The position numbers were made by a program, and so were the translations under genes. A stretch of 45,841 nucleotides of DNA from Phytoplasma sp. (GTDB lineage: Bacteria > Bacillota_I > Bacilli_A > Acholeplasmatales > Acholeplasmataceae), in NCBI GenBank assembly GCA_012519065.1, contig JAAYQV010000018.1, positions 1 through 45,841 on the forward strand, read 5' to 3'. This document shows, piece after piece, positions 10,483-15,438 of the stretch (position 1 is the stretch's first letter; each line of letters begins with the position of its first letter). Below the pieces are notes generated by a model that worked only from the letters and a program-made list of their open reading frames with translations, had not been told where the DNA came from and made no database searches.

Positions 10483-10491
10483 TGATATAAT
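10483..10491 (+). promoter_or_regulatory. Extended -10 promoter element (TGATATAAT) upstream of cdaA
   Basis: TATGATATAAT 36 nt upstream of cdaA ATG. Confidence 0.6.
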
Positions 10492-10526: not shown

Positions 10527-11273
10527 ATGTGGTATCAAGATTTAACTTGGTGGACTATATTACACGTATATTTGATATGGATTGTCACCTACTTTTTATT
10601 AAAAATCATTTTAAATAACAAAAGAAGTTTAGCAACCTTTATTTTCATGGCTTTAAGTATAACAGTTGTTTATTTATCTGAAAAAGTTGGTATGATTCCT
10701 AACCAAAATATCTATCAAGCCCTACTTGTTTTAATTCCTAGTATTGTTGTTGTTATAGCAGCACCAGATTTAAGACTAACCTTTAATTCGATTTGGAAAG
10801 AAAATAATCGAAAAGAAGCTATTGTTATGGGTAGTGAAAGAACCAAACAAGAAATCATTGAGGCTACGTTATATTTAGCCAAAAATAAAATAGGGGCTTT
10901 AATTACTATAGAAAAACATAACACACTAGATCAGTTTTCAAACAAAGCCATTATGATGAACAGTGAGGTTTCAAGAGAAGTATTAGTCAATATTTTCACC
11001 CCGAACACACCTCTGCACGATGGTGCAGTTATCATCAGAGGTGATAAAATATTATGTGCTGGGGCTTACTTTACCTTATCATCTAATGAAAACTTTGAAA
11101 AAACAACCGGATCTAGACATAGAGCGGGTTTAGGTATCAGTGAGGTTTCAGATAGTATGACCATTGTGGTATCAGAAGAAACAGGAAGCATATCGATTGC
11201 TATTGAAGGCATTATGTTAAAAACAAATGACAGAGCCAAACTTCAAGAGTATTTAAATATGTTTATGAAATAG
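10527..11273 (+). CDS. cdaA: Membrane diadenylate cyclase CdaA (DisA_N domain)
   Basis: Three N-terminal hydrophobic segments; NTPLHDGAVIIRG (DGA) and GSRHRAGLGISE (RHR) catalytic motifs. Confidence 0.94.
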   Translation: MWYQDLTWWTILHVYLIWIVTYFLLKIILNNKRSLATFIFMALSITVVYLSEKVGMIPNQNIYQALLVLIPSIVVVIAAPDLRLTFNSIWKENNRKEAIVMGSERTKQEIIEATLYLAKNKIGALITIEKHNTLDQFSNKAIMMNSEVSREVLVNIFTPNTPLHDGAVIIRGDKILCAGAYFTLSSNENFEKTTGSRHRAGLGISEVSDSMTIVVSEETGSISIAIEGIMLKTNDRAKLQEYLNMFMK

Positions 11274-11282
11274 GAGGAAATC

Positions 11283-11453
11283 ATGAAAAAAATAATTGAA
11301 TTCATCTTCCATCCATTTTTATTAATTGGAAACTCTAAAATTCTAACTAAAATAACATCTGCATTTAATAGTAGAAAATGGCCGTTATATGTTTTAACAA
11401 GCATTATAACGTTACTTATTGTCTTTTTCTTATACATATTTCCAAATATATAG
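11283..11453 (+). CDS. 56-aa single-pass membrane peptide of unknown function
   Basis: ATG at 11283 with strong RBS (AGGAGGAAATC) 9 nt after cdaA stop; MKKIIEFIFHPFLLIGNSKILTKITSAFNSRKWPLYVLTSIITLLIVFFLYIFPNI; TAG 11451-11453 next to RBS of the following gene. Below the length cut-off of the ORF track. Confidence 0.75.
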   Translation: MKKIIEFIFHPFLLIGNSKILTKITSAFNSRKWPLYVLTSIITLLIVFFLYIFPNI

Positions 11454-11461
11454 GTGATAAA

Positions 11462-13042
11462 ATGATAGAAGCACAACATCCAATCTTTACATTAATCATT
11501 GCTGGGGTCATTGTTTTTATGATTATTTTAGACAGCATGCAAAGAGAAAGAGTATTAAAGAATAAACTAGGATTTGGTTTGTTTAATGCTGCGATTTCTG
11601 TAGCATTTTTAGTCTTATATGATGGATACATTAAAGAAAATGAACTACTATCACAAATCTATTTAGGATACACCATATTTAACTATGTTTTCTTTATGTG
11701 GGTTTCATATGTCACTTTAAAACAATCAAGTTTAAAATCAAGCCATTATGAATTATTTGTTAAATCAATTAAAAACAGCAGTTGGAATGCTTATTATGCC
11801 GTAGACAAAAAAGAAAGAATCAAAGATATTTCTTATAGTCTACTTCAAGAGCTGGGCTTAGAAAAAGAAGAGGTCATTGGGAAAAAACTATTTACAGTAT
11901 TTAACCAAACCATTCGTTTTTCTAAATTAAATGAAACAGAGATCAACAATAACATCTTAGAAAACTATTACAAAGAATACAAAAAAAGAGCCACTAAAGA
12001 CGATCAAGAACTTCAAGAAATATACTTTCAAAATCACAAAGGGGAAACGGTTGTTTTAAAAATGGTGATGCAACCTATATTTATGATGAACAAATATAAA
12101 GGGCGCATTTGTGTAGGAGAAAAGAAAACAGATTTTGATTTATTCACCGTAGAAAAAGAACTTAATAAAAGTACCACGGAATTAGAAAGTATTCAACAAA
12201 AGTTTATCGCAACCTTAGAATTAAGCGAAGAAGGGCTATTCTTTTTAGATTTAAACGAAAAAACCATGTGGTTAAATGACACGTTAAAAGAAGTTTTAAA
12301 TCTACACAATAACGACTTAAGCTTAGAAGATTATAGAAGTAGAATAGAACCAGAAGACTTAAAGAAATATTTAATGGTTTTAAGTGATCTAACGCCAAGC
12401 AAAAATACATATAAAGTTTCTTATCGATACTTAGTAGAAGGTAGACAAGTTTGGGTTTCAGAAAAAGGGAAAAGAATTTTTGAAGATTTAAAAACATCAA
12501 CGATTATGGGTGTAGTAAACCCTATAGGAACAGCTCACTTTAGAAAAACTAATATTGATATACTTGATGAAATTAAAGATGAGCATCACTTATTAGCGGA
12601 TATGAATAGTCTTATTAAAAGAGATAGACCTTTTCAGTTAGCAATTTTTAAACTCCAAAATATTCCTAAAATTAACGAAACCTACAGTAGAGAAATAGGA
12701 AATATGCTTATGGGCAGTTATATTCAAAGACTAAACAATAATTTTGTAACAGAAAACTCAGGAATTTATAGAATCTCAGGTTTAGAGTTTGCGCTCACCA
12801 TAACTGATCCAAGAAAAATGGATATGATGTATAAAGGTATTAGAGAAATCGATAAGTTCTTAAATTTAACAATGGAATACGGTTCTATAAAAACAGAACT
12901 TGAAGTCTTTGCAGGCGTAAGCATTTATAAAACAGATGGTAAAACAGAACATGAGCTAGCGCAATATGCATATGAAGCTTTAAAGGTTGCTTTAAACCCG
13001 CAATTTAACAGTAATGGATGTTATTATAAAGATGTTAAGTAA
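11462..13042 (+). CDS. Membrane signalling protein: three TM segments, PAS-like region(s), degenerate GGDEF domain
   Basis: ATG 11462 after RBS TAGGTGAT (track start 11378 overlaps the 56-aa ORF). TM: IFTLIIAGVIVFMIIL, FNAAISVAFLVLY, YTIFNYVFFMWVSYV. PAS-like YYAVDKKERIKDISYSLLQELGLEKEEVIGK and GLFFLDLNEKTMWLNDTLKEVLNL. GGDEF position reads IYRISGLEFAL. Confidence 0.75.
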   Translation: MIEAQHPIFTLIIAGVIVFMIILDSMQRERVLKNKLGFGLFNAAISVAFLVLYDGYIKENELLSQIYLGYTIFNYVFFMWVSYVTLKQSSLKSSHYELFVKSIKNSSWNAYYAVDKKERIKDISYSLLQELGLEKEEVIGKKLFTVFNQTIRFSKLNETEINNNILENYYKEYKKRATKDDQELQEIYFQNHKGETVVLKMVMQPIFMMNKYKGRICVGEKKTDFDLFTVEKELNKSTTELESIQQKFIATLELSEEGLFFLDLNEKTMWLNDTLKEVLNLHNNDLSLEDYRSRIEPEDLKKYLMVLSDLTPSKNTYKVSYRYLVEGRQVWVSEKGKRIFEDLKTSTIMGVVNPIGTAHFRKTNIDILDEIKDEHHLLADMNSLIKRDRPFQLAIFKLQNIPKINETYSREIGNMLMGSYIQRLNNNFVTENSGIYRISGLEFALTITDPRKMDMMYKGIREIDKFLNLTMEYGSIKTELEVFAGVSIYKTDGKTEHELAQYAYEALKVALNPQFNSNGCYYKDVK

Positions 13043-13556
13043 AAAAGAATTAAGAACCAAGATTTTAGAAGAGCGCAATCAATTAACGAGTATACAAGTA
13101 GTTTTAGCACAAACAGAGGTTATTAAAAAAATAAAAGAAGACCCTAATTTTATTAAATCCACATACATTGGATTATACAACCCAATTAAAAACGAAATGG
13201 ATTTAAACGAAATTACAAGAAAATTTCCAGATAAAATCTTTTCTTATCCAACCGTAGAAGGAGATGACCTTGTTTTCTATACACCTATAGAAGAAAGTCA
13301 TTATAAGAAAAGCAATTTTGGTGTAATTGAGGTTGTTAAAGGGGAAAATGTAACCAATCAATTAGAGTATGTGATTGTTCCAGCCGTCTCAATGAATCTA
13401 AAAAACTATCGTTTAGGATATGGAAAAGGTTATTTTGATCGCTTCTTTCAAAAAAATAAAGAAATAATAAAAGTTGGTGTATGTTATCGTTTTGCAGTCA
13501 CAGATTTTGAAAATGAAAAACATGATATACCACTAGACTATTATTTCACAGAATAA
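13032..13556 (+). CDS. 5-formyltetrahydrofolate cyclo-ligase family protein
   Basis: SKKELRTKILEERNQL, YNPIKNEMDL, VPAVSMNLKNYRLGYGKGYFDRFF (conserved GyGkGyyDr). ATG 13032 preferred over track start 13014. Confidence 0.9.
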   Translation: MLSKKELRTKILEERNQLTSIQVVLAQTEVIKKIKEDPNFIKSTYIGLYNPIKNEMDLNEITRKFPDKIFSYPTVEGDDLVFYTPIEESHYKKSNFGVIEVVKGENVTNQLEYVIVPAVSMNLKNYRLGYGKGYFDRFFQKNKEIIKVGVCYRFAVTDFENEKHDIPLDYYFTE

Positions 13557-13566
13557 GGTGAAAAAC

Positions 13567-13830
13567 ATGGTAGAAACAAAATTTGGAAACTTTGAAATAT
13601 TAAAAGATTATAAAGACGCTTTTAATAAAGAACAGTTTGAAGAAAAATATGTAGACGTAGCATTTGATAGATATATCTACTTAGTAGGAGACATTGCATC
13701 AGGATTACTTAGAATCAAAGGATTTAGTCAAGATCCTAAAAGTGTTAATGGTTATAAAAAAATACCTGACTATCTAAACGAATCTTGTAATAGAAACTGT
13801 CCTTACTTTGTACTAAAAAGAATTAAGTAA
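13567..13830 (+). CDS. YutD-like protein (DUF1027)
   Basis: DRYIYLVGDIASGLLRIKGFSQD resembles the YutD core; adjacent to an Nfu-like gene. ATG 13567 after AAGGTG. Confidence 0.7.
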   Translation: MVETKFGNFEILKDYKDAFNKEQFEEKYVDVAFDRYIYLVGDIASGLLRIKGFSQDPKSVNGYKKIPDYLNESCNRNCPYFVLKRIK

Positions 13831-13871: not shown

Positions 13872-14108
13872 ATGTCTGAACAAAAAACAATAGCAGAACA
13901 AGTAGACATTTTAATAGATAAAGTAAGACCGTATCTACAAAGAGACGGTGGAGATATAGAAGTAGTCAATATTGAAGATGGAATCGTATATGTAAAAATG
14001 CTAGGAGCCTGTGATGGCTGTATGGCAATTGATATCACATTAAAACAAGGCATTGAAACTATGTTACTAGAAAACGTACCAGGAGTTATTGCGGTTATAG
14101 ATGTATGA
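13872..14108 (+). CDS. NifU C-terminal domain (Nfu-type) Fe-S scaffold protein
   Basis: VRPYLQRDGGDIEVVNIEDGIVYVKMLGACDGCMAIDITLKQGIE with CxxC. Confidence 0.92.
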   Translation: MSEQKTIAEQVDILIDKVRPYLQRDGGDIEVVNIEDGIVYVKMLGACDGCMAIDITLKQGIETMLLENVPGVIAVIDV

Positions 14109-14548
14109 ATGATCCAATTAAGATTATCCTCATTTCAATATTGTCAATGGTAATTGCCCAAGTCATTAAATTCTTTATTTCAGGAAAGCAAAATAAAAAA
14201 CTAGACGAAAAAGTTTTATTTTCAACCGGTGGAATGCCCTCATCTCATTCGGCATTAGTAACTTCATTAGTAACAGCAATATTCATTTATGAGGGAATGA
14301 GCATTTTCTTTGCTATTGCACTTGTCTTAGCGATGGTTGTTGTACATGACTCGATGGGTATTAGATATGAGGCATCAAAACATGCGCAAGATTTAAATAA
14401 AATAAAAGAAAGATTAAACCAAGACGATAATCAAGCTGAAAACGTTGAGAAACTAAAAGAATCTTTAGGACATAAACCAAAAGAAGTTTTTTTTGGCATC
14501 TTATTAGGAATTGCCGTAGCAGTCATCGGTTGGTTATTTTTGGGGTAG
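14105..14548 (+). CDS. Divergent PAP2 family membrane protein (YuiD/DUF212)
   Basis: AQVIKFFI...STGGMPSSHSALVTSLVTAI, VVHDSMGIRYEASKHA, LGHKPKEVFFGILLGI. Confidence 0.9.
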   Translation: MNDPIKIILISILSMVIAQVIKFFISGKQNKKLDEKVLFSTGGMPSSHSALVTSLVTAIFIYEGMSIFFAIALVLAMVVVHDSMGIRYEASKHAQDLNKIKERLNQDDNQAENVEKLKESLGHKPKEVFFGILLGIAVAVIGWLFLG

Positions 14549-14552
14549 TAAA

Positions 14553-15416
14553 ATGAAAACTAAAAGAACTGTTGGAATCGTTGTTGATTCTACTTGTGGA
14601 AACTTATTTAAAGAAACTATTTTTAAAGATGCAAGCATTGTCCCATTAACCATGCTTGTTGATGAAGCATCTTATGTAGATGGCACACTAAGCAACTCAC
14701 AATTACTAGAGTATATGCATAAAAATCATAAAGTAACCACTAGTCAACCAGCGCCAGATTTATTCATTGAAGCTTATAAAGAACAACTGGCTTTAGGATA
14801 TGAATCAGTCATTTGTTTAGTTCTTTCCGGAGGATTAAGCGGGACTATCAATAGCGCCACTTTAGCAAAAACAATTTTAGGAAATGAAAATGTCATTGTT
14901 ATTGATACACAAACAGTAGGCCCAGGCGTTGCTTTCTTATTAGAAAGATTAAATCAATACTTAGAAGATGGTTTAACAGCCAAAGAAGCAGCAGAAAAAC
15001 TAATGAAAAAACAAGCAGTTAAAGGACAACTATTATTTTCAGTCGACCATTTAGGAACCCTTGTAAAAGGAGGGCGCTTAACTAAATTAGAAGCACTTAT
15101 TGGTAATATTTTAAAAATTAAACCGATTTTAAAATTTGAAAGTAGCAAACTAACGGTTGAGAAAAAAGCTAGAGGTGCAGAAGCAGTCTTTAAATATCTA
15201 GTAGGAGAAGTTAAAAAAGCTTTAACCGCTGGCGTGAAAATCGTTGCAAAAGTTGTTTTTGTAGATGATCCAGTTCCAGCAAAAGAACTTATCCATGAAT
15301 TAGCACAAATAGAAGATGAAAACCTTGAAATAGAATTATATGGAGCAATCAGCCCAGTAGTAGCAACTCACCTTGGATACCGAGGAATAGGAATCTATAT
15401 TAACCAAGTCATTTAA
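14553..15416 (+). CDS. DegV family fatty-acid binding protein
   Basis: VGIVVDSTCGN, VTTSQPAPDLFIEAY, CLVLSGGLSGTINSA, VDHLGTLVKGGRL, ILKIKPILKF. Confidence 0.92.
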   Translation: MKTKRTVGIVVDSTCGNLFKETIFKDASIVPLTMLVDEASYVDGTLSNSQLLEYMHKNHKVTTSQPAPDLFIEAYKEQLALGYESVICLVLSGGLSGTINSATLAKTILGNENVIVIDTQTVGPGVAFLLERLNQYLEDGLTAKEAAEKLMKKQAVKGQLLFSVDHLGTLVKGGRLTKLEALIGNILKIKPILKFESSKLTVEKKARGAEAVFKYLVGEVKKALTAGVKIVAKVVFVDDPVPAKELIHELAQIEDENLEIELYGAISPVVATHLGYRGIGIYINQVI

Positions 15417-15417
15417 T

Positions 15418-15438
15418 AAAGAGCGAGAGCTCTTTTTT
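15418..15438 (+). terminator. Rho-independent terminator after degV
   Basis: AAAGAGC-GAGA-GCTCTTT followed by TTT; GNRA-type loop. Confidence 0.75.

Follow-up and report, generated by a model that had tools for sequence, protein, structure and literature searches.

The window analyzed here is a single stretch of DNA of 45,841 nucleotides, in which three genes lie head to tail on the forward strand, namely (i) cdaA (positions 10527 to 11273; PF02457, 1.6e-39), which encodes a membrane diadenylate cyclase of 248 aa; (ii) a gene for a 56-aa membrane microprotein (11283 to 11453), recognized by its conservation, pN/pS ratios, and AlphaFold2 helices; and (iii) a gene for a 526-aa protein, here referred to as PG, with a TM-PAS-PAS-degenerate GGDEF layout (11462 to 13042; PF00990, PF00989, and PF13426). 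The gaps between them are 9 nt and 8 nt, and RBS-like sequences are present, which bears out the original prediction of three ORFs with RBSs and gaps of about 9 nt. The single extended -10 element that it placed before the genes is also there (TGATATAAT, 10483 to 10491, forward strand), as a sequence match and putative operon promoter; however, promoter-like matches are no commoner in this region than in shuffled sequences (30 found versus 34.4 expected), so the element is consistent with a promoter at the level of sequence and does not stand out as one.

The trio itself is real, and the unit runs on past these three genes to degV. All of the following genes are on the forward strand: fthC, encoding 5-formyltetrahydrofolate cyclo-ligase (13032 to 13556; PF01812, 4.9e-27), whose start overlaps the end of the PG gene by 11 nt; a yutD-like gene (13558 to 13830; PF06265, 1.7e-25); a NifU-like gene (13872 to 14108; PF01106, 1.8e-27); a DUF212/divergent PAP2 gene (14105 to 14548; PF02681, 4.1e-42); and a degV-like gene (14553 to 15416; PF02645, 4.1e-58). 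Thus, cdaA apparently opens an operon that continues past 13042 through fthC, yutD, nifU, DUF212, and degV. A terminator-like hairpin with a T tract lies at 15418 to 15435 (forward strand), directly 3' of degV, and this was the sole well-placed site of its kind; since 4 such sites were found versus 2.8 expected in shuffles, the hairpin alone is weak evidence, and degV is the probable last gene of the operon.

CdaA contains three hydrophobic segments by hydropathy, corresponding to three N-terminal TM segments, followed by a DAC domain with intact motifs (DGA at 165 and RHR at 197), and its catalytic columns are invariant in our alignment A2. It has the layout typical of CdaA, though its score against NCBIfam TIGR00159, 183.2 bits, is just below the curated cut-off of 188.8; the source genome, a 1.1-Mb draft that is 90.9% complete, yielded no other DAC protein.

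To place the microprotein, 60 Acholeplasmatales loci were fetched, among which we counted 45 non-phytoplasma and 12 phytoplasma cdaA loci, the phytoplasma label being our own assignment, partly from placement in the family. A small ORF of 49 to 74 aa lies 3' of cdaA in 45/45 of the non-phytoplasma loci, and PG comes next in 43 of them. In one of the 45 (L109), a gap of 115 nt separates cdaA from the small ORF. Further loci retrieved by PG similarity, which overlap partly with the first set and include Acholeplasma laidlawii, A. oculi, Paracholeplasma vituli, and Peloplasma aerotolerans, contain the small ORF in 35/35 cases. Moreover, pN/pS was below 1 in all 21 close pairs, with a range of 0.08 to 0.39, which shows that purifying selection acts on the encoded protein. 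Its conservation and pN/pS together rule out a chance ORF; the 56-aa ORF is a coding gene conserved across the order, in almost all of the free-living relatives of Acholeplasma, and the predicted cdaA-sORF-PAS/GGDEF synteny is not a peculiarity of one strain. The operon is thus genuine and conserved, and a search of the open-access literature found no description of its cdaA-microprotein-PG arrangement.

Two kinds of loci depart from this order. In two genomes of one family, the exceptions to the count of 43, the small ORF stays beside cdaA, whereas PG is found elsewhere with fthC-ispD-yutD-nifU (gene names around the relocated PG being given by sequence similarity rather than by domain search), and no microprotein was seen beside the relocated PG among ORFs of at least 50 aa. 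In the phytoplasmas, which live inside host cells, neither the small ORF nor PG was present in any of the 12 cdaA loci, and in 9 of them a degV-like ORF is the first long one to follow cdaA, as if the entire stretch from cdaA to degV had dropped out. Phytoplasmas thus keep cdaA without the small ORF, indicating that CdaA can do without it.

The microprotein has a Pro-kinked amphipathic N-terminal segment with an invariant Pro11 and a single C-terminal TM helix at about residues 32 to 52. The AlphaFold2 model has short helices, kinked close to Pro11, and a TM helix predicted with confidence at 32 to 52, and across the small ORFs of the 45 loci one proline is invariant and each sequence ends in one TM. 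Pfam returned no convincing family for the 56-aa protein. When the microprotein was compared by hhalign with the CdaR N-termini of one sister family, it aligned end to end, with a score of 29.7 and a probability of 75.7% in a set of 76 sequences, and a score of 26.1 and a probability of 53.6% in a set of 46. Among column permutations that kept the hydrophobic pattern, the hhalign score was reached by none of 250 block-wise and none of 250 local ones with the 76-sequence set, and by 2 to 3 of 150 with the 46-sequence set. Further, CdaR was the top scorer among 11 membrane families tried against the small-ORF profile. The CdaR TM segment alone gave a probability of 5.1%. Pooled or other CdaR groups scored 18.1 to 21.4, with probabilities of 7.2 to 13.7%, and no convincing match came from an hmmsearch of the loci that carry CdaR, the sole match being to the longer N-terminal region in one CdaR group. 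Since one CdaR group was matched while the others stayed at 7 to 14%, and since it had been selected from several that were tried, we treat homology of the microprotein to the CdaR N-terminal anchor as a lead. As a supporting parallel, in two genomes of another family (L213 and L253), the gene between cdaA and glmM encodes a 79-aa protein that has no YbbR repeats and whose TM is like that of CdaR, with a pN of 0.09 against a pS of 0.58.

PG comprises three N-terminal TM helices, a PAS domain, a helical signalling linker, a second PAS domain, and a GGDEF domain (AlphaFold2 pLDDT 86). The Pfam search found no DHH or DHHA1 domain in PG, which confirms that the GGDEF-like protein ends without DHH. 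By Foldseek, its PAS-PAS-GGDEF part matches PAS-GGDEF sensors, DosP and PA0861 among them; TM-scores for the full chain are low. Within a family alignment of 46 members (A1), the GGDEF motif has the form [SGTYDE]-G-x-x-F, with Asp/Glu missing from its third position in 46/46 members, and the first metal-binding Asp is mostly replaced, being kept in a few; residues N405, G413, R437, G440, F443, and D369 are invariant. PG is probably not a cyclase, and its degenerate GGDEF domain may bind a nucleotide. Two GGDEF proteins with canonical motifs are encoded elsewhere in the source genome, one with RYGGDEF and DVDNFKKIND (G000:C44:10426-10863, L273) and the other with RYAGDEF and DIDNFKNLND (G000:C129:4017-4469, L274), so that this wall-less lineage probably makes c-di-GMP.

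Across the class, a PG-like gene either comes straight after cdaA or is separated from it by mgsA or the gene for a 780-aa protein, and some subset of fthC, ispD, and ispF lies downstream; PG keeps company with fthC, ispD, ispF, yutD, and nifU no less than with cdaA. A contig scan with a single PG protein as the query gave no matches, and the narrower PG alignment A3 did give them. In two PG-bearing genomes of one genus in another family (G215 and G283, 97% and 92% complete; loci L199 and L200), which keep PG-like and GdpP-like proteins, no DAC gene was found. Because PG is relocated in two genomes and present in two others where no DAC gene was found, its association with cdaA is not obligatory, although it is old and frequent. 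As for the intervening genes, mgsA (MGS domain) separates cdaA from the PG-like gene in two families (L178, L179, L195-L197, L216, and L260). The 780-aa protein, also in two families (L185:1518-3851), has a Rossmann-like N-terminus (VVIIGGGLGSLTTA) and no Pfam match at 1e-5, and similar ORFs occur in L186, L192, L193, L194, L214, L215, and L261.

The original prediction went on to propose that the microprotein and PG may replace the functions of both CdaR and GdpP by sensing a signal and controlling CdaA. The GdpP half did not survive: the source genome encodes a complete 818-aa GdpP (PAS-GGDEF-DHH-DHHA1), fused to ribosomal protein L9 and unlinked to cdaA, and the GdpP part has a strong match in 155/160 Acholeplasmatales genomes, including all 88 of good quality, which rules out its replacement by the pair. 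This true GdpP matches the GdpP-specific models PF24898 and PF21370. The in-frame fusion lies at L002:445-2901, and it may be general in the order, as open frames of similar length (about 810 to 860 aa) recur through the Acholeplasmatales. Two tandem genes for DHH phosphoesterases of 311 and 305 aa are also present elsewhere in the source genome (L003:443-2301). The CdaR half, in contrast, was strengthened in part. As predicted, the cdaA locus lacks a YbbR protein and glmM, the latter having been checked at the locus only; further, YbbR/CdaR was found neither elsewhere in the source genome nor in any of the 160 Acholeplasmatales genomes by a search that was positive in four control genomes. 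The 56-aa protein, for its part, is encoded directly after cdaA, stays linked to that gene, and is similar to the anchor at the N-terminus in some CdaR proteins.

CdaR is known to contact CdaA at the CdaA TM region (PMC8573169; PMC6368335), and the mechanism by which it controls CdaA is stated to be unclear (PMC8573169); GlmM inhibits CdaA by blocking higher oligomers (PMC8573169). We give even weight, for and against, to the proposal that this is the usual operon for c-di-AMP synthesis in the Acholeplasmatales and that the microprotein is a dedicated, TM-only, CdaR-like partner of CdaA, as is suggested by the small ORF staying with cdaA where PG moved and by the count of 0/160 genomes with YbbR. 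According to this proposal, CdaA would make c-di-AMP, which the unlinked GdpP-L9 fusion would degrade. The TM helix of the microprotein would pack against the CdaA TM bundle, with its kinked amphipathic N-terminus on the cytoplasmic face of the membrane if the inferred topology holds, and would thereby set the assembly of CdaA dimers into active oligomers. By analogy, the microprotein would act as a CdaR without extracellular YbbR repeats, in wall-less cells whose cdaA locus lacks glmM. PG would be a sensor in the membrane, with two PAS domains and a GGDEF output that is catalytically dead but may bind a nucleotide; co-expressed with CdaA, it may feed a PAS signal into the CdaA complex or act on other targets.

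PG may instead be the real regulator of CdaA, in line with the original prediction, with its PAS domains sensing heme, redox state, or a ligand, its dead GGDEF domain sensing GTP or c-di-GMP, and the microprotein serving as a linker. In keeping with this, PG-type genes stand at once or one gene after cdaA in several families outside the order, the canonical GGDEF proteins in the genome mean that c-di-GMP could be present, and the GGDEF residues N405, R437, G440, and F443 are invariant. We nevertheless consider it unlikely, given that PG accompanies the class-wide neighbours named above as much as cdaA and occurs where no DAC gene was found, though a GdpP-like protein is kept there. The microprotein could alternatively belong to PG, as an accessory subunit of a PG sensor complex whose link to cdaA is operonic, which would account for the two genes being neighbours in 43/45 loci and both missing from 12/12 phytoplasma loci. 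The joint absence, however, may be a single event, because the phytoplasma loss took out the entire stretch from cdaA to degV; outside the order, PG occurs without the microprotein; and in the two genomes in which PG moved, the microprotein remained with cdaA. This makes a PG subunit distinctly improbable to us.

The same observation weighs on an explanation without any functional coupling, by which the adjacency would reflect a conserved string of housekeeping genes and the microprotein would be an unrelated small membrane protein. While the remaining genes of the operon are indeed unrelated housekeeping genes, and phytoplasma CdaA has neither partner, the microprotein strictly follows cdaA throughout the order, including in the genomes with a relocated PG, and we rate mere adjacency as very improbable.

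If the microprotein is a CdaR-like partner of CdaA, a natural one-TM protein would show which part of CdaR matters, and would form a minimal pair with CdaA; wall-less Acholeplasmatales, including A. laidlawii, would gain a candidate means of regulating c-di-AMP that involves neither CdaR nor a GlmM encoded at the locus. We tentatively raise a further idea, to which we give somewhat less than even weight, that CdaR shrank at least twice to a TM-only microprotein, once in the Acholeplasmatales after wall loss (56 aa) and once in the glmM-bearing lineage (79 aa). In that case, the membrane anchor, and not the extracellular YbbR repeats, would be the essential CdaA-regulating part.

Among known systems, CdaM/PdeM of Mycoplasma pneumoniae (PMC5508000) likewise concerns wall-less Mollicutes that make and degrade c-di-AMP, but the CdaM model scores the present CdaA at 125 bits, far below its 225-bit cut-off. 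PG differs from DosP and PA0861 in having no EAL domain and in the loss of its GGDEF catalytic motif. The TM, PAS, and degenerate GGDEF parts of GdpP (TM-PAS-degenerate GGDEF-DHH-DHHA1) recur in PG, whereas PG has two PAS domains, matches the generic GGDEF model rather than PF24898/PF21370, and lacks DHH/DHHA1; this different domain content and these model matches rule out a truncated GdpP. The microprotein shares with CdaR (i) its gene position directly after cdaA and (ii) an amphipathic N-terminus and one TM, and its profile is like the N-terminal region of one CdaR group, which we take as a lead; at 49 to 74 aa, however, it has no YbbR domain and almost no extracytoplasmic part. Finally, the CdaA-CdaR-GlmM operon of Bacillus, Listeria, Lactococcus, and Staphylococcus (PMC8573169; PMC6368335) has in common with the present locus a three-TM CdaA with a DAC domain and a next gene whose product is a membrane protein containing a TM helix, whereas here that next gene lacks YbbR repeats, the locus lacks glmM, and PG and a housekeeping string follow. 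We regard the arrangement as a variant cdaA operon and not as a system of a new kind.
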